Shown: positions 15,852 through 28,644 of the stretch, piece by piece
Layout: each line of letters begins with the position of its first letter
How positions within the stretch are numbered: the first letter of the stretch is position 1
NCBI GenBank assembly: GCA_030428385.1
Contig: JAUIDY010000025.1
Coordinates: 1-57,797, forward strand
Direction of reading: 5' to 3'
From: Rhodothermia bacterium
GTDB lineage: Bacteria; Bacteroidota; Rhodothermia; Rhodothermales; JAAAOL01
DNA length: 57,797 nucleotides
Notes under the pieces: generated by a model
The model's input: the letters and a program-made list of their open reading frames with translations, nothing else
Databases searched by the model: none
What the model was told of the DNA's origin: nothing
Made by a program: the position numbers and the translations under genes

Positions 15852-16673
15852 TCAGACAATGGAGTCAGGGGGGTAATCGTTCGGATCGAAGGACGGTTCG
15901 GGGTATTGTGGATTCATGTCCTTCAAAGTATCGAGCACCAACTGACTGACGACCAGATTGCGAAACCAGCGTTCTTCGGCGGGGATGACGTACCAGGGTG
16001 CCCACGGCGTAGAACAACGACGGATGGCGGTTTGATAGGCGTCCATATAATCGTCCCAGTAGCCCCGTTCTTTGAGGTCGCCGGGGTTAAATTTCCAGTG
16101 TTTGTCTGGCTTGCGCAACCGGTTCTTAAACCGCTCCAACTGAAACTCCTTCGAGACATAAAGCATGATCTTCAGGATGCGGGTCCCGTGATCTGCCAGC
16201 AATTCTTCGAAGGCGTTGATATGCCCGTAGCGTTTCTCGATGAGGTCCGGGGATGCCCAGCCGTGAACTTTAACAACCAACACATCTTCGTAATGGGAGC
16301 GGTTAAACACCGCGATGTTGCCTTTTTGGGGGGCGTGATCGTGGATTCGCCACAAGAAGTCGTGGGAAAGTTCTTCTTTGCTAGGCGCCTTAAATCCCCA
16401 CACGCGGCAGCCCTGGGGGTTCAGGTCACCAAAAACTTTGCGGATGGTGCTGTCTTTCCCCGCTGCATCCATGGCCTGGAGCACCACCAGCAGCGATTGT
16501 TTGTCCTCGGCATACAGCCGCTCTTGCCAATCATCTAATTCTTTGCGATTGTCATCAAATACGTCATCCGCCTGATCCTCATCAAGCTTCTGCGTATCGG
16601 CAGGGTCCACATCGGCGAGGCGAAAATTTGCGTCGGCCCGGTAACGGTCATAATCGAGAGAAAAAGCGGCCAT
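15852..16673 (-). CDS. ppk2: polyphosphate kinase 2 family protein
   Basis: Cytoplasmic PPK2 enzyme of 273 aa that uses polyphosphate to phosphorylate nucleotides, or the reverse. Walker A reads MDAAGKDSTI (about 67-76), and FNRSHYEDVLV (about 123-133) is the Walker B/lid-associated motif in which SHYED is typical. FNPGDLKERGYWDDYMDAY matches class I/III PPK2 from Deinococcus- and Meiothermus-like bacteria. The single domain and length suit a one-domain enzyme. The AMP versus ADP preference cannot be read safely. It lies between pabB-pabC and acs on the same strand, 215 bp before the first ATG of acs, so acs probably has its own promoter. Confidence 0.92.
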   Translation of the reverse strand: MAAFSLDYDRYRADANFRLADVDPADTQKLDEDQADDVFDDNRKELDDWQERLYAEDKQSLLVVLQAMDAAGKDSTIRKVFGDLNPQGCRVWGFKAPSKEELSHDFLWRIHDHAPQKGNIAVFNRSHYEDVLVVKVHGWASPDLIEKRYGHINAFEELLADHGTRILKIMLYVSKEFQLERFKNRLRKPDKHWKFNPGDLKERGYWDDYMDAYQTAIRRCSTPWAPWYVIPAEERWFRNLVVSQLVLDTLKDMNPQYPEPSFDPNDYPPDSIV

Positions 16674-16726: not shown

Positions 16727-18565
16727 TCAAGGATCAACTGTCAACGCTGCATTTATAGGCACAAGCTCCTTAACCGTTTTTAATCCCATCAGGGCATTAC
16801 AAAGCAAAACCTCATCGGCCTGCATCAGGTCCTCGACGTAGAGTACCTGCTCCGACGCCTCTGGGTGGGTTTCCAGCACATGCCTGCGGTACACCCCCCC
16901 CAGCAACCCACTCGATATGGGCGGGGTGTAGAGGTGCGAGCCTTTGCGAATAAACACATTGGTCCGCGATCCTTCCGCCACTTCTCCGCGCTCGTTTATA
17001 AACAGGACCTCGTCAAAGCCCATTCCCCTCGCCTGGTCATACCAACGTTCATAAAAATGGCGATGGGTGGTCTTGTGAAAATAGAAGTGGTCGCTGCTCT
17101 GCACCGATTCTGGCGCGATGAGTACCCGCTGAACTTCTGGCGGTATAGCATAGGGCTGGTCCGTAACCGAAAGCGTGCCGTCTTCCGCCAGTGTCACGCG
17201 GACTTTGGCTTGACTCCTCGTCCCCTGAGCGGCTTCAGACACCCGTTGTTCGAATATTGCACGGTTAAAGCGATACCTGAAGTACCCAGCGGATGTCTCC
17301 ATGCGATCCGCGTGCAGGCCTAGCAATGGAACCGTGCCTCCCTCGGCGCGCATGGTTTCGATGAGTTCGAACGCATGTGCTGCACCCGTCAAGGTGAGAA
17401 ACTGGCCTTTTAACATACACTCATCGTATTCCGCCTCGGCATCTGAATCCCACACGATGCCACTGCCACTACCCATCACGCCCTTGTCCTCCTGCAAGAC
17501 AAGGGTTCGGATAGCGACGTTAAACGTGGCCTGCTGTTTGGGGCTGATGTAGCCTATCGCTCCACAATACACTCCCCGTGCGCCCGATTCCAACTGATGA
17601 ATGCGTTTCATGGCGCGGATCTTGGGAGCCCCCGTCACGGACCCACACGGAAAGAGCGCCCGGAACAGATCCGCGTAGCGAATTCCATCTTTCAGAGTAC
17701 CCTCCACCGTGGAGGTCATCTGAATCAGTGTCTCGTACGCCTCGGTGTTAAACAACGCCGGGACACGCACCGTACCCGGCTCGCAGCACACCGACAGGTC
17801 ATTACGGAGCAAGTCGACGATCATCAGGTTTTCCGCCTGGCTTTTTTCATCAGCAGCCAGCCAGTGACGCAGCTGTTCATCTTCTTCCCAGGTGCGTCCC
17901 CGCTTGACCGTGCCTTTCATCGGGCGGGTGACGATGCGATTCCCTTGACGCTGAAAAAAGAGTTCGGGCGAAAGGCTCAGGATGGTGCATGCTTCCAGTT
18001 GTAAAAAAGCCCCGTAGGCAACCCGTTGGCGTTGGCGCAACGCCTCATAAAACGCCCATGGATCACCCGTGAAAGAAAAGGTAAAAGCATCGGTGAAGTT
18101 GATCTGGTATACATCGCCCTCCCGGATGTACTGCTTGATTGCTGCAATCGCATCCAGGTATTCCCGCCTCGGTAAACGGAAAGCGAGGTCGTGCACCTGA
18201 AAAGAAGATTGTGGAGAAGCTACATCTGCGAAATCAAACCCCGCTTGGCGAGTAGGTTCATCATACACGCCAAACCACAGGAGCGGATACGGCAGCGAAG
18301 GTTCGGAAGCGACCTCTTCGAAGGCATATCCGGCCTCATAGGCGAGATACCCCGCCACCCAGTACCCGTCGGCCACGGCTTGATCAACGGCTTCGAGGGT
18401 TGAATGCACTTCTAGAATAGAATGGGCCTGCAAAACCGCAATCGGCTCTTGAAACACAAGCGACTCGCGCTGCGCGGCGTTTGGCGGAGCGGTGTCGAAA
18501 AGCAGGGTACCGTGCGAAGTGGAGCGCAACGATTCGGGCACTACAGTTGGGAAATTGATGCTCAC
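16727..18565 (-). CDS. pabB: aminodeoxychorismate synthase component I fused to aminodeoxychorismate lyase
   Basis: Two-domain enzyme of p-aminobenzoate and folate biosynthesis, about 612 aa from the GTG at 18565. The frame continues to another GTG at 18616, and the choice is uncertain. The N-terminal chorismate-utilising domain (to about residue 395) includes EGDVYQINFTDAF, RPMKGTVKRG with the active-site Lys, DLLRNDLSVC, FPCGSVTGAPKIRAM and GSGIVWDSDAEAEYDEC. The C-terminal fold IV PLP enzyme (from about 405) has its PLP Lys in FYFHKTTHRHFY and the signature EVAEGSRTNVFI. It converts chorismate plus ammonia to aminodeoxychorismate and then to p-aminobenzoate plus pyruvate. No pabA amidotransferase gene lies next to it. 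Confidence 0.92.
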   Translation of the reverse strand: MSINFPTVVPESLRSTSHGTLLFDTAPPNAAQRESLVFQEPIAVLQAHSILEVHSTLEAVDQAVADGYWVAGYLAYEAGYAFEEVASEPSLPYPLLWFGVYDEPTRQAGFDFADVASPQSSFQVHDLAFRLPRREYLDAIAAIKQYIREGDVYQINFTDAFTFSFTGDPWAFYEALRQRQRVAYGAFLQLEACTILSLSPELFFQRQGNRIVTRPMKGTVKRGRTWEEDEQLRHWLAADEKSQAENLMIVDLLRNDLSVCCEPGTVRVPALFNTEAYETLIQMTSTVEGTLKDGIRYADLFRALFPCGSVTGAPKIRAMKRIHQLESGARGVYCGAIGYISPKQQATFNVAIRTLVLQEDKGVMGSGSGIVWDSDAEAEYDECMLKGQFLTLTGAAHAFELIETMRAEGGTVPLLGLHADRMETSAGYFRYRFNRAIFEQRVSEAAQGTRSQAKVRVTLAEDGTLSVTDQPYAIPPEVQRVLIAPESVQSSDHFYFHKTTHRHFYERWYDQARGMGFDEVLFINERGEVAEGSRTNVFIRKGSHLYTPPISSGLLGGVYRRHVLETHPEASEQVLYVEDLMQADEVLLCNALMGLKTVKELVPINAALTVDP

Positions 18566-18660
18566 CAAACGGAACCACGGGCAAGATGGATCCACACTCC
18601 TTGACCGGGCCCTCACGGCTTTTCCTTTCTTTCCTCACTTTTTCCGCGAACGAATCGCTG

Positions 18661-18745: not shown

Positions 18746-19459
18746 ATGCATCAGGACTATATAAAATGGTGGAGTCCCAGCCTCGGGCGTGACATGGAGT
18801 TGGTTGTTTTTGGGCATGGCGGTACCCCGCTTCTGGCGTTTCCTTCCAGCATGGGGCGCTTCTTCGAATGGCGCGACTTCGGCATGGTGGGCGCGCTGGC
18901 CGATCAACTAGAGCATGGCCACAACCAGCTTATCTGCGTAGACTCGGTTGACAGCGAAAGCCTGTACAACAAACACGTCGATCCCTTCACCCGAATCCGG
19001 CGGCATCAGCAGTACGAAGCCTATATTGTTAACGAAGTGCTGCCGTTCATCCGTAATTACACGGGCCATCACTTTATCATGGCAGCCGGCGCGAGCTTCG
19101 GGGCGTACCACGCGATGAATTTTGTGCTCAAGCAGCCGTGGCAGTTCGGCAAGCTGATTTGCATGAGCGGGGCGTACGACATCAAGTCGTTTATGGACGG
19201 TTTTTACGATGAGAATGTTTATTTCTCCAACCCCGTCGATTACTTGCCCAACCTGAACGACCACCACACCCTGGAAGCGCTCCGGCGGAACCACATCATC
19301 CTCACCACCGCCGAGCATGACCCGTGCAAGGACGCCAATTTCTACATCAGCCACCTGCTCAACAGCAAAGGTATACAGCATACGTTCGACTTTGAGGACG
19401 GCGTTTTCGGGCACGACTGGCCGTGGTGGCGACACCTGATCCGCAAGCACATTGCGTAA
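18746..19459 (+). CDS. alpha/beta-hydrolase esterase of the ATP-grasp cassette
   Basis: Putative serine esterase of 237 aa, similar in layout to the Esterase D/antigen 85 (PF00756) group. No signal peptide is visible, so it should be cytoplasmic. The nucleophile elbow is GASFGAYHA with Ser117. The acid is probably Asp192 in TTAEHDPCKD, and the base is His223 in FGHDWPWW or His230. A complete triad suggests an active enzyme. It is followed, after a convergent membrane-protein gene, by two ATP-grasp ligases and a glutamine amidotransferase. It may process or release an acylated intermediate or product of those ligases; this is inference from position. Its stop abuts the stop of the opposing gene (TAATTA). 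Confidence 0.8.
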   Translation: MHQDYIKWWSPSLGRDMELVVFGHGGTPLLAFPSSMGRFFEWRDFGMVGALADQLEHGHNQLICVDSVDSESLYNKHVDPFTRIRRHQQYEAYIVNEVLPFIRNYTGHHFIMAAGASFGAYHAMNFVLKQPWQFGKLICMSGAYDIKSFMDGFYDENVYFSNPVDYLPNLNDHHTLEALRRNHIILTTAEHDPCKDANFYISHLLNSKGIQHTFDFEDGVFGHDWPWWRHLIRKHIA

Positions 19460-19864
19460 TTAGTGACGCCCAAAATGCTGCTGTACCTGCGCGGAACGGA
19501 ACAGGAAAACCGCAATGGACACGTAGGCGATGTATTCCAGCCCCATCGCCAGATATCGCCCGCTGTTGGTGAGCATATCGAGGGTTTGCACGGCACAGAG
19601 GGTGGCCATCATGGTGTAGGCGAGGCTCATAGCAACGGGCGTGTGCTGCCATTTGGTGACGTAGCCGAACAGGAACGTCCCGCCTCCTGCAACAATCGCC
19701 ACCCAGTGTAAAAACTGCATCCCGGCGGGAAAAGCGGGGTTTTGTAAGTCAATCCACGGAACCGACGGGGCGAAATATTCCACAAACCCGAGCACGCCCC
19801 AGACCAGCAGCCCCAGGTGCACCAACACCAGCATCGAAAAGAAATAGGTGGATACCTGGTTCAT
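19460..19864 (-). CDS. four-helix membrane protein, unknown family
   Basis: Protein of 134 aa that I do not recognise. It has about four hydrophobic segments: residues 8-29, 50-68, 76-97 and 107-123. The N-terminus (MNQVSTYFFSML) has no cleavable signal, and the C-terminus is short and polar with His (QQHFGRH). The gene is oriented against the esterase and ATP-grasp genes that flank it. It could belong to the same locus or simply be enclosed by it. Its stop (TTA on the top strand at 19460-19462) directly follows the esterase stop with no spacer. Confidence 0.75.
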   Translation of the reverse strand: MNQVSTYFFSMLVLVHLGLLVWGVLGFVEYFAPSVPWIDLQNPAFPAGMQFLHWVAIVAGGGTFLFGYVTKWQHTPVAMSLAYTMMATLCAVQTLDMLTNSGRYLAMGLEYIAYVSIAVFLFRSAQVQQHFGRH

Positions 19865-19902
19865 TAACTTGATCCCCAGTGTTATTTATATGAGACTTCC
19901 CC

Positions 19903-19937
19903 TTTAAATATTCAATATTCCTTGTTCCTTGTACTCA
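19903..19937. repeat. degenerate heptamer-phased repeat upstream of the first ATP-grasp gene
   Basis: Read in steps of seven the sequence is TTTAAAT / ATTCAAT / ATTCCTT / GTTCCTT / GTACTCA, a pattern close to rTTCnnT. It lies in the 162-bp spacer between the membrane protein gene and the ATP-grasp gene. A similar 7-bp phasing recurs on the other side of that gene. Confidence 0.5.
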
Positions 19938-20026
19938 TCGGTATTAATGTATTTATCCGGCGGATTGCAATGGTGAATTCCATGCATCTTATTCTCGTCT
20001 CTCTTTGATCTCTAACCCTAAACCAT

Positions 20027-20968
20027 ATGCCAAGCAAAACCATCCATAAAATCGGCGTCCTACGGGGCATGGAAACCACGTTTCCGGACGGCATCATCCC
20101 CCACATTAACGACACCTACGGCAAGGACGGCATCCACGCCGAGTTTGTCTCGCTGGACCACGTCTCGATGGACGGCGAACCCGAATACGCCGTGCTGCTC
20201 GACCGCATCTCGCACGAGGTGCCGTTTTACCGTTCGTACCTGAAATGGGCCGCGCTGAAAGGCACGTACGTCTGCAACAACCCATTCTGGTGGAGCGCCG
20301 ACGACAAGTTCATCGACAATGTCATTGCCATGAAAGTGGGTGTGGCGGTGCCGCGCAGCGTCATTCTGCCACACAAAGACCACCCGACCAACACCCAATC
20401 GGAGTCGTTCCGCAACCTCAAGTATCCCGCCGATTGGGATGCCATCTTCGACTACATCGGCTTCCCGGCCTTCCTGAAGCCGCACGACGGCGGCGGCTGG
20501 CGCGGCGTCAGCAAAGTCACCAACCGCGACGAATTCTTCGCCGCGTACGACGCCTCGGGCCAGGACTGCATGTTGTTGCAGGAAGGCATCGAGTTCGAGG
20601 ATTACTTTCGGTGCTATGGCATTGGGCAAGAGGATGTGCGGATTATGCGCTACAATCCTGGGGCGAGCAACGCCCAGACGCGCTACTCGGAAGTAAACCC
20701 GGACCCCATCCCGAAAAAGATGCTGGCGAAGGTCAAACGCGACGTACTGGCCCTGTGTCGCGCCCTCGGCTACGACATGAACACGGTAGAATTCGCCGTC
20801 CGCGATGGCGTGCCATATGCCATCGACTTCATGAATCCCGCCCCAGACGCCGACTTCTGGACGGTGGGCCAGGAGAACTACGAGTGGGTCATTAAGGCGG
20901 TCGGTAAGTTCCTCGCCAAAAAGGCCAAGCAGGGCCGGACGCACAATCAGGTACCGCTAAGTTTGTAG
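20027..20968 (+). CDS. ATP-grasp ligase (RimK-like)
   Basis: ATP-grasp fold enzyme of 313 aa that would join a carboxylate to an amine through an acyl-phosphate. A pre-ATP-grasp domain (about 1-95) includes DRISHEVPFYRSYLKWA. The ATP site follows: Lys151 in FPAFLKPHDGGGWRGV with the Gly-rich loop at 155-160, the hinge Glu186 in MLLQEGIEF, and Mg ligands at Glu255 (NTVEFAV), Asp267 and Asn270 (AIDFMNPAPD). All are present, so activity is likely. The substrates are unknown. It is followed at 21137 by a second, circularly permuted ATP-grasp enzyme. Base composition is visibly GC-rich, with many C/G-ending codons compared with the genes before 18600. Confidence 0.85.
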   Translation: MPSKTIHKIGVLRGMETTFPDGIIPHINDTYGKDGIHAEFVSLDHVSMDGEPEYAVLLDRISHEVPFYRSYLKWAALKGTYVCNNPFWWSADDKFIDNVIAMKVGVAVPRSVILPHKDHPTNTQSESFRNLKYPADWDAIFDYIGFPAFLKPHDGGGWRGVSKVTNRDEFFAAYDASGQDCMLLQEGIEFEDYFRCYGIGQEDVRIMRYNPGASNAQTRYSEVNPDPIPKKMLAKVKRDVLALCRALGYDMNTVEFAVRDGVPYAIDFMNPAPDADFWTVGQENYEWVIKAVGKFLAKKAKQGRTHNQVPLSL

Positions 20969-20982
20969 ACCCGTTGGTTTTC

Positions 20983-21132
20983 GTGAAACGTGATGCGTTA
21001 AACGTGAACTTCTTTCAGACGCTTGTGCTCTAAACAACGTGCCTGCTGACTCGATCGGATTCTGTTTTTTTGTTCTCTCGTTTCTCAACGTTATCACCAG
21101 CACCCTCACGCTTCACGTTTCACGTTTCATTC
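20983..21132. repeat. heptamer-phased repeats forming an inverted pair between the two ATP-grasp genes
   Basis: The left block reads GTGAAAC / GTGATGC / GTTAAAC / GTGAACT at 20983-21010. The right block reads CTCACGC / TTCACGT / TTCACGT / TTCATTC at 21105-21132. GTGAAACGTGA (20983-20993) is exactly complementary to TCACGTTTCAC (21113-21123). The right block ends four bases before the ATG at 21137, so a stem-loop could affect its translation. No ORF of note lies between. Confidence 0.6.
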
Positions 21133-21136
21133 TCCC

Positions 21137-22522
21137 ATGCGAGACGAACTGCAACCCGCGATTGACTATTACCACGGCCTGATCGCCCGTGACCTCGGTG
21201 CCGCCGAACGACAACTGGCTGAACTGCTTGGCAAACAGGTCGAGCGCAAGGTCACGTTTGGCGACCGGCCGATGGCCCACAGCCTGCGCCCCACCTTTAT
21301 GACGGAGGCGACGTACAACTGGGTCCAGGATACGGTTTACCTGATCCGGCAGGCGGTGCTACGCATCGCGGCGGCCTACTTTACCAACACCACCCTGCTC
21401 AAGGAAGACCTGGGGATGGAAGAATGGGAAATCGAGCTGGCAGCGATTCCCACCAACGTGATCCGCCTTTCGGCGCTCTCACGGATGGATTCCTTCATCA
21501 CGAGTGACTCGTTTAAATTCGTCGAGATCAACGGAGAAAGCCCGGCGGGCATCGCGTATATCCACGAGTTGGGCCGCATCTACCGGGAAATGCCACTGTT
21601 CCAAGCCTTCGAGCGGACGCATCCTGTGCGGTTCATCTCGCCTATGGAGCATACGCTGTCGGCGCTGCACCTAATCTACCACGAGCAGTTCGACGGGCGC
21701 GAGGAGCATCCCAGCATTGCCATCGTGGACCACCTCGACGTGCCCACTATTCATGAGTTCAACCTGCTGAAGAACTACTTCGAGCGGATGGGCTCTCCCT
21801 GTGAGGTGGTGGCTCCGCAGGCCCTGGACTGCCGCGACGGGTGGATCTACGCCAATGGGCGTAGAATCGACATTTTGTATCGCCGCCTGTTGATGAATGA
21901 GTTTTACGCGGTCAAAGACGAATGTCAGGCGTTTTTGGAAGGGTACGTGGCGCAGAAAACGTGTTACATCAACACGTTCCGCACCAAGATGGTGCACAAA
22001 AAAGCCATCTTTGCCTTCCTCACCGATGAGCGGTATACCGCAATTCTCACCAACGAACAGCGGGAAGCGATCCGGGCGCACATCCCTTGGACACGGATGC
22101 TTCGGGAGCAAAAAACCTCATTCAGAGGGCTCAAAATTGACCTGCTTGAATTTGTACGGGCCAACCGCAAATATTTTGTCATCAAACCCAACGACGAATA
22201 CGGGGGGAAAGGGGTCTCACTCGGATTTGCCTCAACCCAGGCTGAGTGGGACGATGCCCTGAATCAGGCCATTGGTCATGACTTCGTGGTACAAGAAACG
22301 GTGGATATTCACCGGGAACCGTTCCTCATGAAAACAGCCAACGGCTGGGACATGATTCCCACCATCATCGACCTCGACCCGTACCTCAACGGCCCGCTGA
22401 TGGGCGGCTGCCTCACCCGAACCTCGGCCTCAAACCTTGCCAACGTAACTGCAGGCGGTGGTACCCTTCCGATGTTTATTCTTCGCCATACCTATGGAGA
22501 TCGTACCCCAAGCTTTACCTAA
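21137..22522 (+). CDS. circularly permuted ATP-grasp ligase
   Basis: Protein of 461 aa whose ATP-grasp motifs occur in permuted order, as in the glutathionylspermidine-synthase-like and cp-ATP-grasp families. The metal/substrate segment FKFVEINGESPAGIAY comes first (Glu130, Asn132). The ATP-lysine segment YFVIKPNDEYGGKGVSLG (Lys350, Gly356-357) follows only after a 200-residue insert, and then VVQETVDI with Glu387. A final NLANVTAGGGTLP (433-445) closes the site. The binding residues seem complete. It probably makes a second amide or peptide bond in the same pathway as the preceding ligase. The amidotransferase gene begins inside its 3' end, so the two are translationally linked. The exact substrate is unknown. 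Confidence 0.8.
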   Translation: MRDELQPAIDYYHGLIARDLGAAERQLAELLGKQVERKVTFGDRPMAHSLRPTFMTEATYNWVQDTVYLIRQAVLRIAAAYFTNTTLLKEDLGMEEWEIELAAIPTNVIRLSALSRMDSFITSDSFKFVEINGESPAGIAYIHELGRIYREMPLFQAFERTHPVRFISPMEHTLSALHLIYHEQFDGREEHPSIAIVDHLDVPTIHEFNLLKNYFERMGSPCEVVAPQALDCRDGWIYANGRRIDILYRRLLMNEFYAVKDECQAFLEGYVAQKTCYINTFRTKMVHKKAIFAFLTDERYTAILTNEQREAIRAHIPWTRMLREQKTSFRGLKIDLLEFVRANRKYFVIKPNDEYGGKGVSLGFASTQAEWDDALNQAIGHDFVVQETVDIHREPFLMKTANGWDMIPTIIDLDPYLNGPLMGGCLTRTSASNLANVTAGGGTLPMFILRHTYGDRTPSFT

Positions 22523-23369
22523 ACCTCACCCTGCAGATCCTCGCTCGTTGCGCATCGCGGTCATCGACCTGTACAATGGCGAGGCGAATCAGGGGATGCG
22601 GGCCATCCGCGAGTTGTTGCAGCGCTGCAACGGTCGTTTCCATGGTGTGCCCGTTAGCATTGATGTGTTTGAGACCCGCCTACACGGTGAGATTCCTGAC
22701 CTTAGCTATGACGTGTATTTATCCTCAGGTGGTCCGGGCAGTCCGTATGAAGGACAGGATCAACCCTGGGAAGCGGCGTATTTCAACTGGCTAGACCGGT
22801 TGTGGAATCATAACATACAACACCCCGAGGCCAGGAAACACGCCCTCTTCATCTGTCACTCGTTCCAGATGATGTGTCGGTTCTTCGACCTTGCCGAAAT
22901 CACGGAACGCCGCTCCCAGTCCTTTGGCATTTTTCCGGTTCACCTGACCCCCGAAGGACAAGCCGACTCCATTTTTGCTGGCCTGCCTGATCCCTTTTAT
23001 GCGGCCGATTTCCGGGATTGGCAAGCAGTTCAGCCTCATACCGAGCGGCTTCAAGAGATGGGGGCTTCGGTGCTGGCGTTGGAGAAAGACCGGCCGCACA
23101 TTGACCTGGAACGCGCGGTGATGGCAATCCGTCTGTCTCCTGAATTTGTCGGGGTCCAGTTTCATCCCGAAGCCGACCCGCCAGGGATGCGGGTGCATTT
23201 TTATAAAGGCACGCGGCGGCGGCATATCACGGCCCAACACGGCGAAGCCAAGTTTTACCGGATTGTCAACCGGCTGGAGGACCCGACGTATCTGACCCGG
23301 ACTCACCAGACCATCATTCCGGAATTCATTCGGCAGGCCCTAAACGCACAACGCCCGGAGCTTTTATAA
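22494..23369 (+). CDS. class I glutamine amidotransferase-like protein
   Basis: Class I glutamine amidotransferase-fold protein, about 291 aa from the ATG at 22494, which lies 29 bp inside the cp-ATP-grasp gene. An upstream GTG at 22458 is less likely. The oxyanion strand SSGGPGSPYE is at about 78-87. The nucleophile is Cys121 in ALFICHSFQMM; most relatives have GxCxG, so this elbow is unusual. His224 and Glu226 in GVQFHPEAD complete the triad. It could supply ammonia from glutamine to the ligases, or hydrolyse a gamma-glutamyl amide. No synthetase domain is fused. The overlap with the ligase gene argues strongly that the two work together. Confidence 0.85.
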   Translation: MEIVPQALPKPHPADPRSLRIAVIDLYNGEANQGMRAIRELLQRCNGRFHGVPVSIDVFETRLHGEIPDLSYDVYLSSGGPGSPYEGQDQPWEAAYFNWLDRLWNHNIQHPEARKHALFICHSFQMMCRFFDLAEITERRSQSFGIFPVHLTPEGQADSIFAGLPDPFYAADFRDWQAVQPHTERLQEMGASVLALEKDRPHIDLERAVMAIRLSPEFVGVQFHPEADPPGMRVHFYKGTRRRHITAQHGEAKFYRIVNRLEDPTYLTRTHQTIIPEFIRQALNAQRPELL

Positions 23370-23405: not shown

Positions 23406-24080
23406 TTAGCGCTTGCCGCCCAGCAAGCCGCCAAGCAGACCGCCAACATCGTCGATGACGTTACCATCTCCATCGGCGTCGAGCAAGTCCAACAGGCTTC
23501 CACCGGATTGCCGCCGGGACTGATTGCCAATTTGTGACCGCTCCTGGGTCAGCAGGTCCGTGAGACCACCTGCGTCCAGCCCTTTCTGGCGCTTCATTTG
23601 GCCCAACGCTCCCATCACGATAGGAGCAAGCATTTTCAGCAATTCACCGCTTTGGGCCGCATCAATCCCCGAGGCCTGTCCGACGCCTTGCTCCACCTGA
23701 CCACGCTTGCCGCCGAGGATATGTCCCAAGATCCCGTCAGCGTCAAGCGTCTTTTTAGAGGAAGCGCCACCACCCAACATGCTGGTGGCAGCACCAAGAA
23801 GCCCTCCTAGATCGCCCCCCTGGCTTCCGCCTTGCAAAGCGCCTAGCAAGCCGCCCAGGTTGTTCAGCACCGACCCATCATGGTCCCGCTCCAGGGCATG
23901 CGCAAGCGACTCCGCGCCCGTTGGCGACTGTGCATTCTTGGCGAGCCCACCGATCAAGGCAGGAAGGGCCGCCGCAATGGCCGATTCCGTAGCGGATTCA
24001 TCCAGTCCGAGTTGGCGGCCTACTTGCTGCGTGGTTCCGGCTCCGAGTTGTTGGGTAATGAGATCAATAAGTTGGGACAT
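23406..24080 (-). CDS. DUF937 family protein with an EF-hand-like C-terminus
   Basis: Protein of 224 aa from the ATG at 24080. The longer frame to 24170 adds a non-conserved, Cys-containing stretch. The N-terminus MSQLIDLITQQLG followed by LGLDESATESAIAAALPALIGGLAKNA is the DUF937/YidB-like signature. The middle is Gly/Leu-rich and low in complexity (GGLLGA repeats, residues 75-110). A second helical region contains QSGELLKMLAPIVMGALGQMKRQKGL. Near the C-terminus LLDLLDADGDGNVIDDVGGLLG contains a DxDxDG calcium-loop pattern. The function is unknown. It has no signal peptide. It lies 125 bp downstream of the lipoprotein gene, separated by a nested inverted repeat. Confidence 0.8.
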   Translation of the reverse strand: MSQLIDLITQQLGAGTTQQVGRQLGLDESATESAIAAALPALIGGLAKNAQSPTGAESLAHALERDHDGSVLNNLGGLLGALQGGSQGGDLGGLLGAATSMLGGGASSKKTLDADGILGHILGGKRGQVEQGVGQASGIDAAQSGELLKMLAPIVMGALGQMKRQKGLDAGGLTDLLTQERSQIGNQSRRQSGGSLLDLLDADGDGNVIDDVGGLLGGLLGGKR

Positions 24081-24110
24081 GGCCCTCTTTCGTTTCGTGA
24101 AGCAAAATGA

Positions 24111-24177
24111 ACGGCGGGGCGATACATTGTCTGGATTCGCAACACCAGACAGCACATACGCGAAGTGCACCCGCCGT
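24111..24177. repeat. nested inverted repeat between the lipoprotein and DUF937 genes
   Basis: The outer arms are ACGGCGGG (24111-24118) and CCCGCCGT (24170-24177). The inner arms are TGTCTGG (24128-24134) and CCAGACA (24145-24151). It could fold as a two-stem hairpin in the mRNA leader of the DUF937 gene, or be a remnant of a small repeated element. Confidence 0.5.
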
Positions 24178-25050: not shown

Positions 25051-28000
25051 TCACATATTGCGCCGATATTGCCCCCCTACCTCAAACAGGGCCTGTGTAA
25101 TCTGACCCAGGGAGCACACCTTTACGGTTTCCATCAACTCCTCGAACAGATTGCCGCGTGCCCGAGCCACCGCCTGCAGACGCTGAAGGACTGCCGGGGC
25201 TTTGCTGCTGTTCCGTTCATGCCACTCCCTAAGGTGGTCGAGTTGATGTTGCTTCTCTTCTTCTGATCCCCGCATCAATTCCACGACCTGCTGTTCGGGC
25301 TCCTCACCGGGGCGCTGAAACATGTTGACGCCCACAATGGGAAGTTTGCCCGAGTGTTTCTGGTGTTCGTAATGCAGGCTTTCCTCCTGGATTTTGCCCC
25401 GCTGATACATGCTCTCCATGGCTCCTAGCACACCGCCTCGTTCATTGATGCGATCAAACTCGTCCAGCACTGCTTCCTCCACCAGATCGGTAAGTTCTTC
25501 GATGATGTAACTCCCCTGAAGCGGGTTTTCATTTTTCGCCAGCCCTAACTCACGGTTGATAATGAGTTGAATCGCCATCGCCCGGCGTACGCTTTCTTCG
25601 GTGGGCGTGGTGATGGCTTCGTCGAAGGCGTTGGTATGCAGGCTGTTGCAATTATCGTAGATCGCATAGAGCGCCTGCAAGGTGGTGCGAATGTCATTAA
25701 ACTGGATCTCCTGAGCATGCAGGCTCCGCCCGGAGGTTTGAATGTGGTACTTAAGCTTCTGACTGCGCTCATTGGCCCCATACCGTTCCCGCATCGCCAC
25801 GGCCCAAATGCGCCGCGCCACCCGTCCGATGACGCTGTACTCAGGGTCCATGCCGTTGGAGAAGAAAAACGAGAGGTTGGGGGCAAAGTCGTCGATGTGC
25901 ATCCCTCGGCTGAGGTAATACTCCACGTACGTGAACCCATTGGCGAGCGTAAACGCCAGCTGCGAAATCGGGTTGGCTCCAGCCTCGGCGATGTGGTAGC
26001 CTGAAATGGAGACCGAATAGAAATTACGCACCTGCTGGTCGATGAAGTACTGCTGGATGTCGCCCATCAGCTTAAGGGCAAACTCCGTGGAGAAAATGCA
26101 GGTGTTTTGGGCCTGATCCTCTTTGAGGATGTCGGCTTGCACCGTTCCGCGCACGACCCGTAGCGCCTCTGCTTTTAGGTGGTTGTATTCCTCTTCCGAA
26201 AGCACTTGCTTTTCTACCAGGTCGCTGCCTGACCACCCCAACAACCCCAGGCCAGCACCGTTGTGCGTGGGCGGCAGCCCGTCCTCCTTCCCTTTCGGTC
26301 CGAATGGTTCGTAGCGGGGCCGTTCGCCCATAATCTGCTCCGCCTCCTTCCATCGTCCTTCCGCCTTCAGAAACGCCTCCACCTGCTGGTCGATGGCCGT
26401 ATTCAGAAACATCGCCAGTAGCATCGGGGCGGGACCGTTGATGGTCATCGACACGCTGGTCTTCGGATCACACAGGTCAAAGCCCGAATACAGCTTCTTC
26501 ATGTCATCCAGCGTGCAAATACTCACCCCCGAGGTGCCTACTTTGCCGTAAATATCAGGGCGTTCATCGGGGTCAAAGCCATACAGCGTGACCGAGTCGA
26601 AGGCCGTAGAGAGCCGTTTGGCGGGCATGCCTTCGCTGACGAGGTGAAAGCGGCGATTCGTTCGCTCGGGGCAGCCCTCGCCGGCGAACATGCGGGTCGG
26701 ATCTTCGCCTTTCCGCTTAAATGGAAAAACGCCTGCCGTAAACGGATAAAAGCCCGGGACATTTTCGAGCAACGCAAACCGCAGCCGCTCTCCCGGATCG
26801 GTGGTCCGTGGCAGAGCCACACGCGGGACGTGGGTCCCCGACAGGGTTTCTACGGTGAGCGGGACCGTGATATCGCGTCCCCGGACCTGGTAGGTAAACT
26901 GCTCTCCCCGATACCGTTCTGCCAAGGCATCCCAGTCATCCAGGATGCGTTTGCACCGATGATCGAGCTTGTCCCACCAATGCTGCGCCATGATGTTGAG
27001 GCGGTCCATAAGCACCTCCTGGTCTTCTGGCGCCCACGACGCCACCTGCTCTCGGGCCCCCATTGCCTGTCCCCACTTCTGGGCGATTTCGGCCTGCTGC
27101 ATCGCCCATTTCTTGTACTGTATAACCGACTCGGCGATCTCACCGAGGTACCGCTGCTTTTTCGGGGGGATTATCGCAAGTTTTGACGGATCAACCTCCG
27201 GTAATTCCTCCGCAGCGTAAAGCTGTGACGACTGCCCAAATGCATAAGAAGTATTCAGGTGATCAAGCAGGGCAAGGTACAAACGCGTAACGCCGGGATC
27301 GTTGAACTGGTTGGCCATCGTCGGGAAGACAGGCATGGCATCTGGCGATTGGCCAAAGGCTGCCCGGTTGCGCTGCACCTGTTTGCGAATGTCGCGCAGG
27401 GCATCACGACTGCCCCGTTTTTCAAACTTGTTCAGGGCAACAAAATCGGCAACATCCAGCATTCCAATTTTTTCAAGCTGTGTCGGCGCGCCGAAATCGT
27501 GCGTCATCACATACAAGGAAACGTCCACCAGTTCGGTGATTTCGGTATCGCTTTGTCCGATCCCGGCGGTTTCAAGGACCACTAAATCGAACCCTGCCGC
27601 TTGGCACACCTCAATGGCTTCCCGTAGGGCGTTGCTCGTAGCGCGGTGGGCTTGTCGGGTGGCAAAGCTGCGCATATACACCCGATTGGTGTGCGCCCCA
27701 TAAATTGCGTTCATCCGAATACGATCGCCGAGCAACGCCCCCCCCGTACGCCGACGGGTGGGATCGACCGACAATACCGCCACCTGAAAATTGTCAAAGT
27801 CGTTCAAAAAGCGCCTCACCAATTCGTCGGTGAGGGTGGATTTTCCCGCGCCACCTGTGCCGGTGATACCCAATACAGGAGTGGCTGAGGAGCGCGAAGC
27901 GGGATAATCCAGTGCGGGCTCCCCACCAACTGCTCCATCGCCCCCCCCAACATGAGCCCGCTGCTCTACTTTGGTGAGCTTTTTTGCCAGCGTTTCTACC

Positions 28001-28500
28001 TTTCGTGCCACCACCTGCACGGCTTCATTTTCCTTCTTGCTCTCCCTTTCCCAAGCCTCCAAGGTGTCAAAATCGCAGGCTTTGAGCATCAGGTTGATCA
28101 TGCCCTGAAGCCCCATCTCCATCCCATCCTCGGGAGAGAAAATCTTACAAACCCCATAGGCTTCCAGTGAGGCAATTTCCTCCGGGACGATAACCCCGCC
28201 TCCTCCACCAAATATCTGAATATGACCTGCCCCGCGCTCCAACAGCAGATCGTGCATATAGGTGAAGTATTCCATGTGCCCGCCCTGATAAGACGAGATG
28301 GCAATGCCCTGAACGTCTTCCTGAATGGCGGTATCTACAATCTCCTGAACGGAACGGTTGTGTCCGAGATGAATCACTTCAGCCCCGCTTGCTTGCAGGA
28401 TGCGGCGCATGATATTGATGGCCGCGTCATGTCCGTCGAACAGGCTGGCGGCTGTCACAAAGCGAATGGGATATGTAGGCGTATATACGGCAGGTTGCAT
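25051..28500 (-). CDS. icmF: isobutyryl-CoA mutase, fused form
   Basis: Adenosylcobalamin-dependent acyl-CoA mutase interconverting isobutyryl-CoA and n-butyryl-CoA, with its own GTPase chaperone in one chain, 1149 aa from the ATG at 28500. Order: B12 domain (1-140) with LFDGHDAAI holding cobalt ligand His24, and [11 protein letters not shown]; MeaB-like G domain with Walker [16 protein letters not shown] (about 210-225); a linker; the mutase barrel with [25 protein letters not shown] and [20 protein letters not shown]. The Phe and Gln in these segments are the IcmF, not methylmalonyl-CoA mutase, pattern. A longer frame opens at a TTG at 28629, but that lies inside the sodA terminator. Another 5-carbon acyl-CoA substrate is possible. 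Confidence 0.93.
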
Positions 28501-28606
28501 GGTACCGGCATGGCTTTGATCGATACAATAAAGCGTGGGGGGCATGTGCTCAACGCATGCCCGCGTCAGAGGTTTTTCACCCCGATACACGGTCGCGTCG
28601 ATCTGC

Positions 28607-28644
28607 AACAAAAAAGGGCTGAAGCGCAATGCTTCAGCCCTTTT
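28607..28644 (-). terminator. intrinsic terminator of sodA
   Basis: A perfect 14-bp stem, AAAAGGGCTGAAGC with its complement across a 5-nt loop, is followed on the minus strand by a T run and TTGTTG. It lies 22 bp after the sodA stop. Confidence 0.88.

Follow-up and report, generated by a model that had tools for sequence, protein, structure and literature searches.

The window, a 57,797-nucleotide contig from a member of the Rhodothermia (order Rhodothermales; GenBank JAUIDY010000025.1), contains a cassette of four genes that all point rightward:

EST1, 18746–19459, + strand: 237 aa, alpha/beta-hydrolase of the PF00756 ('putative esterase') family, triad Ser117/Asp192/His223
AG1, 20027–20968, + strand: 313 aa, RimK-like ATP-grasp carboxylate-amine ligase
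CPAG, 21137–22522, + strand: 461 aa, circularly permuted ATP-grasp ligase
GAT, 22494–23369, + strand: 291 aa from the ATG at 22494, stand-alone class-I glutamine amidotransferase-like hydrolase

An initial annotation of the locus had described four rightward genes with a 29-bp overlap between the last two, and this agrees with the ORF coordinates if GAT starts at the ATG at 22494; the longest GAT frame in the ORF call runs from a GTG at 22458 to 23369. Because a 134-aa minus-strand ORF (19460–19864), which that annotation does not mention, occupies the 567-bp gap between EST1 and AG1, the four genes are not an unbroken run; among the relatives inspected, no comparable gene was seen in this position. 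A divergently oriented PabB-PabC neighbour lies at 16727–18616. The EST2, GCS2 and AG3 partners and the glycogen-gene neighbours discussed below belong to loci outside the window.

All four genes are intact and keep their catalytic residues, which are invariant or nearly so among 23–62 homologues. EST1 scores 36.4 bits against PF00756 (Pfam gathering score 22), and its GxSxG elbow (G115-x-S117-x-G119), D192 and H223 are near-invariant in 32 homologues. AG1 falls below every Pfam ATP-grasp cut-off; K151, E255, D267 and N270, which occupy ATP-grasp catalytic positions, are near-invariant among its homologues. CPAG reaches 31.6 bits against CP_ATPgrasp_2 (PF14403), just under the gathering cut-off of 32. 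Its metal-binding ExN (E130/N132) precedes its ATP-binding K350-P-N-D-x-Y-G-G (350–357), which is the permuted order, and E130, N132, K350 and G356-G357 are invariant. GAT exceeds the PF00117 cut-off (30.5 against 22.8 bits) and has an intact class-I triad, with C121, H224 and E226 invariant among homologues. The catalytic residues named in the initial annotation are thus all present and near-invariant, except that E186 of AG1 is invariant only among closer relatives. The same annotation had read the CHSFQ elbow of GAT, which stands where the canonical CxGxQ would be, as a sign of a special substrate. This we do not uphold: CHSFQ or a close variant occurs in 40 of 40 family members, linked to the cassette or not, and since it is the norm across the family it is no evidence for a special substrate.

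Comparison of relatives reveals how the genes are inherited. The usual order in Rhodothermia is EST1-AG1-CPAG-GAT-EST2, and in many other Bacteroidota families EST1-AG1-GCS2-GAT-CPB is typical, as at locus L015 of Mucilaginibacter myungsuensis KCTC 22746, with EST1 as the first gene in most Rhodothermia loci and most full GCS2-type loci. Related EST1, AG1 and GAT therefore stand in the same order in both, whereas in the window CPAG replaces CPB and a GCS2 of the YbdK type (NCBIfam PRK13515), the form found in the Bacteroidota loci, is missing from both locus and genome. Of 60 genomes in the window's order, a practically identical set of ~20 contains AG1, CPAG and GAT, and the three genes adjoin in nearly all of these; AG1 co-occurs with CPAG in 19 of 20 (p = 1e-14) and with GAT in 18 of 20 (p = 4e-12; Fisher tests, which ignore shared ancestry). 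Across 345 sampled Bacteroidota genomes AG1 is present in 117, about a third, and is found in 73 of the 74 genomes that have GAT (p = 2e-42) and in 100 of the 111 that have GCS2 (p = 3e-55; Fisher again, ignoring shared ancestry). Physical linkage is not a prerequisite. Where GAT is unlinked, AG1 lies elsewhere in 9 of 10 genomes, and in KSB1 and Tanganyikabacteria AG1, CPAG and GCS2 sit side by side with GAT elsewhere. In a phylogenetic tree, the AG1 proteins from CPAG-type loci of Rhodothermia form one clade (support 0.998). Many genomes contain AG1 alone, or with just an unlinked GCS2, and the other parts are therefore not essential to AG1, which is the core gene of the pathway. These data support the view that the four genes are one conserved functional unit, coupled genome-wide even if unlinked; the possibility raised in the initial annotation, that homologues would be scattered and never adjacent, is contradicted by their adjacency and co-inheritance. 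That annotation had also seen no transporter or precursor peptide, and we likewise found none with a fixed place near 60–70 homologous loci. An ABC ATPase is close to a minority of these loci, and beyond hydrolases and ligases no pathway gene recurs.

The ligases that accompany AG1 vary. CPAG occupies the place of CPB, to which a profile match (E 3.5e-5 over 347 columns) marks it as a distant homologue, and it matches the 'putative glutathionylspermidine synthase' 3n6x at E 1.5e-8; on this sequence evidence, CPAG is distantly related to both. The YgiC/YjfC acid-amine ligases (7uk8, 7uk6) are matched only at E 0.03–0.6, with CPB matching YgiC weakly, and imply no substrate. A GCS2-type partner ligase, guessed at in the initial annotation, is indeed usual in the Bacteroidota loci, although PRK13515 GCS2 has no match in the window genome or in 7 other cassette-bearing genomes of the order that were sampled. 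A GCS2 match on another contig of the window genome (C178) belongs to a 715-aa GCS2-CBS protein and was rejected as the PRK13515 ligase. A third ATP-grasp protein, AG3, has two unlinked copies in the window genome; it occurs in 14 of the order's 60 genomes, each of which carries the cassette (p = 7e-9, Fisher, ignoring shared ancestry), and lies near the cassette in loci L049–L051, L056, L085, L143–L148, L168 and L176.

Sequence comparison gave no close solved relative for AG1 or GAT, and predicted structures, a check proposed in the initial annotation, were used for these two proteins. The AG1 AlphaFold model is of moderate confidence (pLDDT 77). The structural matches listed for it are ATP-grasp proteins, the top one being RimK (Z 18.3), whose score is equalled by inositol-phosphate kinases that share the fold. 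AG1 therefore has the fold and active-site residues of the RimK/LysX/ArgX amino-acid ligases, but its sequence scores 26 bits against the RimK family TIGR00768, far under the cut-off of 143.4, and the protein substrate of RimK is not implied for it. RimK glutamylates a ribosomal protein, and with RimK as the nearest fold the ligases might tag a protein or storage polymer instead of building a free metabolite. Storage genes do adjoin the cassette in several lineages. L065 reads GlgA-GlgC-EST1-AG1-CPAG-GAT on one strand, GlgC-GlgA-GlgB lie near cassette members in L143–L146, GlgC is beside AG3 in L176 and GlgA beside AG3 in six Rhodothermales loci; a cyanophycin synthetase is near the cassette in L085 and L143–L146. 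The glycogen neighbours are confined to a minority of lineages and are absent from the window. Because AG1 scores below the RimK cut-off and no gene for a tag peptide, a precursor or a dedicated acceptor recurs in these loci, we consider tagging unlikely. The glycogen and cyanophycin genes of relatives suggest that the cassette may act alongside the storage of carbon or nitrogen.

The GAT model (pLDDT 87) is closest to TM1158 (Z 23.8), DnfC (Z 22.1) and Arabidopsis GGP1 (Z 22.0), single-domain enzymes with which it shares the class-I GATase fold and the Cys-His-Glu triad, and from which it differs in its 14–16% identity, its CHSFQ elbow and its extra C-terminal helices. This set of neighbours allows two versions of the pathway. 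The first is a gamma-glutamyl protection cycle, in which a gamma-glutamyl group is added (by GCS2 in genomes that have it), the ligases lengthen the chain, and GAT acts as a GGP1/PuuD-like peptidase and not as an ammonia source. GGP1, including its complexes with Glu and gamma-Glu (Z 21–22), ties with DnfC as a match to GAT, TM1158 being slightly higher; GAT is encoded on its own and not as a domain of a synthase; it co-occurs with GCS2 in 62 of 74 genomes; and an M17 aminopeptidase lies in the gene row of L085, L143–L148 and L168. Set against this, PRK13515 GCS2 is absent from 12 of the 74 GAT genomes, the window's among them, and DnfC and TM1158, both titled glutamine amidotransferases, fit GAT equally well. 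We regard the cycle as a real possibility that falls a little short of even. In the second version GAT is a glutaminase that gives ammonia to an ATP-grasp ligase, and the product ends in a carboxamide. The intact triad, the CPAG/GAT frame overlap in the window and the match to DnfC and TM1158 would all suit such an arrangement; in several groups, KSB1, Calditrichia and Thermoflexibacter among them, GAT is however not linked to the ligases, and it is missing from many genomes with AG1 and GCS2, so that we hold this version as a possibility on the doubtful side.

GAT could also serve the divergent PabB-PabC as its glutaminase, which would make the cluster a folate neighbourhood. PabB homologues adjoin the cassette in seven Rhodothermales loci, but were not found beside it in other Bacteroidota loci. 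Moreover, GAT scores 17.9 bits against TrpG/PabA (cut-off 121), and the true TrpG/PabA of the window genome, at 220 bits, is on contig C44. We therefore rejected GAT as the PabA partner and consider this reading very improbable. A further proposal is a glutathione-like low-molecular-weight thiol pathway, with GCS2 and AG1 in place of GshA and GshB. The minimal AG1+GCS2 set in many genomes and the membership of GCS2 in the YbdK/PRK13515 family are consistent with it; the window genome, however, does without that GCS2, and GAT, CPAG/CPB and the esterases find no obvious place. In addition, the bacillithiol gene bshC is present in 337 of 345 genomes, cassette or not, and therefore another thiol is probably already there. 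This near-universal distribution, with no anticorrelation, also led us to discard replacement of bacillithiol by the cassette. Overall, a thiol product appears improbable.

A circularly permuted ATP-grasp is also part of the CP_ATPgrasp/alpha-E/transglutaminase peptide-modification system, as summarised in PMC3597751 citing Iyer et al. 2009. The window locus shares the permuted ATP-grasp with that system but lacks its alpha-E and transglutaminase genes. Contig C88 of the window genome has a row of this kind, distinct from the cassette, in which a CPAG-like match stands with alpha-E-like and transglutaminase-like proteins. We excluded this match from the cassette; CPAG is only 26% identical to it. 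Our literature text searches returned no description of the gene set; Iyer et al. 2009 (doi 10.1039/b917682a), which may hold a prediction on GCS2 neighbourhoods, fell outside their scope. The gene set is conserved but uncharacterised, and its enzymes probably link amino acids to give a small compound with amide bonds.

We favour, with some confidence, the interpretation that the cassette in the window is the form taken in Rhodothermia by a pathway that is widespread in Bacteroidota and makes a small amide-linked, peptide-like metabolite. AG1 would convert a carboxylate to an acyl-phosphate and couple this with an amino acid, probably as RimK does, and CPAG (CPB elsewhere) would form a second amide bond. 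As a stand-alone thiol hydrolase, GAT would split either glutamine to release ammonia or, as GGP1 does, the gamma-glutamyl bond of an intermediate, and the esterase(s), for which the initial annotation had suggested release or tailoring, may cleave an ester in substrate or product. In most Bacteroidota the YbdK-type GCS2 would supply a gamma-glutamyl amide; the window genome has no such GCS2, and the step is therefore either dispensed with or taken over by another ligase, which may be CPAG or an AG3 protein encoded by one of the two unlinked copies. The order of these steps, the substrates and the product are what we infer from the gene set, conserved residues, predicted folds of AG1 and GAT, co-inheritance and co-occurrence described above. 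An amide-bonded metabolite made with ammonia or gamma-glutamyl chemistry, as the initial annotation proposed, is reasonable because the unit is conserved, the AG1 fold is nearest RimK and that of GAT comes closest to stand-alone GATases and gamma-glutamyl peptidases. More tentatively, AG1, GCS2, a permuted ligase, GAT and AG3 might form a conserved pathway, present in Bacteroidota and in certain other phyla, for an undescribed small peptide or conjugate tied to carbon and nitrogen storage as glycogen and cyanophycin, with the window as a GCS2-free branch.

These findings have biological implications. The partners of AG1 are co-inherited with it almost without exception, and the GCS2-free Rhodothermia branch indicates that parts of the pathway are exchangeable. 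With a set so common, a clear ligase chemistry and storage genes alongside in several lineages, the cassette probably makes a common metabolite that has gone unrecognised.

The initial annotation described a four-gene cassette, and all four reading frames are present at the positions it reported, with the catalytic residues that it listed invariant or nearly so across homologues. The window lies on contig C204 of a 6.19-Mb genome, and the cassette and its neighbours are arranged as follows.

15852–16673 (−), PPK2, divergent from the cassette
16727–18616 (−), PabB-PabC fusion, divergent from the cassette
18746–19459 (+), PF00756 esterase (EST1)
19460–19864 (−), 134-aa ORF between EST1 and AG1
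20027–20968 (+), RimK-like ATP-grasp ligase (AG1)
21137–22522 (+), circularly permuted ATP-grasp ligase (CPAG)
22494–23369 (+), stand-alone class-I glutamine amidotransferase-like hydrolase (GAT)
23406–24170 (−), DUF937 protein, convergent with GAT
25051–28629 (−), 1192-aa protein resembling a fused B12-dependent acyl-CoA mutase, IcmF-like as read from its sequence

Pfam confirmed the PF00756 esterase and the PF00117 amidotransferase; because CPAG scores just below its cut-off and AG1 well below, neither ligase falls cleanly in a curated family. The nearest named matches with this gene row come from Rhodothermaceae and Rhodothermia MAGs (L009, L016), on which basis the order is taken as Rhodothermales. 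The 134-aa ORF lacks a Pfam match, is apparently of membrane type by its sequence, resembles neighbouring genes in codon composition, and occurs in this genome only among the relatives examined. Around the cassettes of Rhodothermales, PabB homologues occur in seven loci (the window included) and PPK2 in five; a DUF937 protein also adjoins the cassette in L052 and L058 and, by sequence, a contig-edge GAT in L106, and an IcmF-like protein lies nearby in L053 and L058. The identification of GAT as the PabA of the neighbouring PabB-PabC was rejected.

Whether these genes travel together was raised by the initial annotation, and they do. Among 60 genomes of the order Rhodothermales, the window's own included, AG1 occurs in 20, CPAG in 19 and GAT in 19, with Fisher p values for co-occurrence between 1e-14 and 4e-12. 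Exceptions are mostly contig-end fragments (G006, G022); one of another sort, G021, has a divergent locus with AG1, CPAG and a GCS2 ligase and lacks GAT. In a profile scan of the fetched loci the order was EST1-AG1-CPAG-GAT; another PF00756 esterase (EST2) often comes next, and the window genome has none at this place. The AG1s of CPAG-type Rhodothermia loci form a single clade (support 0.998), as expected if one arrangement was inherited vertically. A further ligase, the ATP-grasp_4 protein AG3, lies near the cassette in L049–L051, L056, L085, L143–L148, L168 and L176, and all 14 of the 60 genomes that have it are cassette carriers (p 7e-9). In the window genome AG3 is present twice, unlinked to the cassette, on C104 (57%) and C159 (42%); the C104 copy and a PF00756 esterase gene point away from each other, a layout that four genomes show.

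In loci from outside Rhodothermia, the complete row is usually EST1-AG1-GCS2-GAT-CPB; the GCS2-type partner that had been suggested exists there and is absent from the window genome. This GCS2 is a YbdK-type carboxylate-amine ligase (PRK13515), CPB is distantly related to CPAG (hhalign E 3.5e-5, 347 columns), and shorter rows (AG1-GCS2-CPB, AG1-GCS2, AG1 alone) are also common. Across 345 Bacteroidota genomes, AG1 occurs in 117, GAT in 74 and GCS2 in 111, and AG1 is carried by 73 of the 74 GAT genomes and 100 of the 111 GCS2 genomes; these counts ignore shared ancestry, but the AG1-positive genomes are spread over 35 families. The strongest evidence for coupling of GAT and AG1 comes from ten genomes. 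In nine of them GAT lies away from every ligase of the set, and in the tenth (L014) it stands at a contig edge; all but one of the ten have AG1 elsewhere in the genome. Two rows with an unlinked GAT (L005 7997–14321, L006 1954–6028) continue with putative threonine-synthase-like and amidohydrolase-like proteins, and in L005 putative xanthine-dehydrogenase-like subunits also adjoin. KSB1 and Tanganyikabacteria have AG1, CPAG and GCS2 in one cluster and GAT at another site, which rules out CPAG as a replacement for GCS2. CPAG occupies the place of CPB; why the window genome has no GCS2 is a different question, to which a secondary loss would be the simplest answer.

In some lineages the cassette also has glycogen genes as neighbours, although not in the window, where none lies beside it. 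In L065, glgA, a glgC-like gene, EST1, AG1, CPAG and GAT form one row on one strand; in L143–L146, glgC-glgA-glgB adjoins an esterase, an M17 aminopeptidase, AG3, EST1, AG1, GCS2, GAT and CPB, followed by cyanophycin-synthetase-like and cyanophycinase-like genes, both named from sequence reading. With L085, these loci resemble a storage island (glgC-glgA-glgB, PF00756 esterase, M17 aminopeptidase, AG3, whole cassette, cyanophycin synthetase, cyanophycinase-like gene), and the N-terminus of its PF00756 esterase may bind glycogen. A glgC-like gene follows AG3 in L176, and glgA lies near AG3 in six Rhodothermales loci (L133, L134, L139–L142), in most of which an M14 carboxypeptidase-like gene adjoins glgA. 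Such neighbours of cassette members or AG3 recur in at least three distant lineages; the chance rate of a glg gene at an AG1 locus is about 1/100, a rough estimate rather than a formal test. We treat the link to storage as a lead, not a result.

Other GCS2-like and CP-ATP-grasp matches in the window's genome belong to different systems. A 715-aa protein on C178 (L103 294–2441) joins a GCS2 domain to CBS domains, and many genomes of the order have similar partial GCS2 matches in frames of 615–745 aa. A separate row on C88 (L104 1343–4826), with CP-ATP-grasp and putative alpha-E-like and transglutaminase-like proteins, is the peptide-modification system already known (PMC3597751, citing Iyer et al. 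2009), apart from the cassette. A role of the cassette pathway as a bacillithiol replacement was rejected.

GCS2-ATP-grasp neighbourhoods in Bacteroidota were reportedly also predicted by Iyer et al. in 2009. The literature searched yielded no description of the GCS2-free Rhodothermia version, the AG3 partner, the genome-wide coupling or the glycogen neighbours.

The predicted structures bear on chemistry. The AG1 model (pLDDT 77) best matches RimK (Z 18.3, 3.4 Å over 256); diphosphoinositol kinases and LysX/ArgX score no more than roughly 1–1.5 Z lower. The modelled fold therefore favours amino-acid ligase chemistry, short of proof. The GAT model (pLDDT 87) matches TM1158 (Z 23.8, 2.6 Å over 227), then DnfC (Z 22.1, 3.1 Å over 228), tied with Arabidopsis gamma-glutamyl peptidase 1 (Z 22.0, 3.0 Å over 231). 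Motifs are intact in both ligases, in opposite order, and the intact thiol hydrolase GAT and serine hydrolase EST1 are tightly co-inherited with them. GAT would supply ammonia or trim gamma-glutamyl groups. Because its gene often lies away from those of the ligases and tends to be found in genomes with GCS2, we slightly and tentatively prefer a gamma-glutamyl hydrolase, although the window genome lacks GCS2 and the gamma-glutamyl group would therefore need another source; ammonia supply seems only a little less likely. Our confidence in each role overlaps with that in the best explanation, since both are versions of it: a pathway for a small amide-linked metabolite, in which AG1 and the permuted ligase would form successive amide bonds and the target of the esterase would be an ester of either the substrate or the product.
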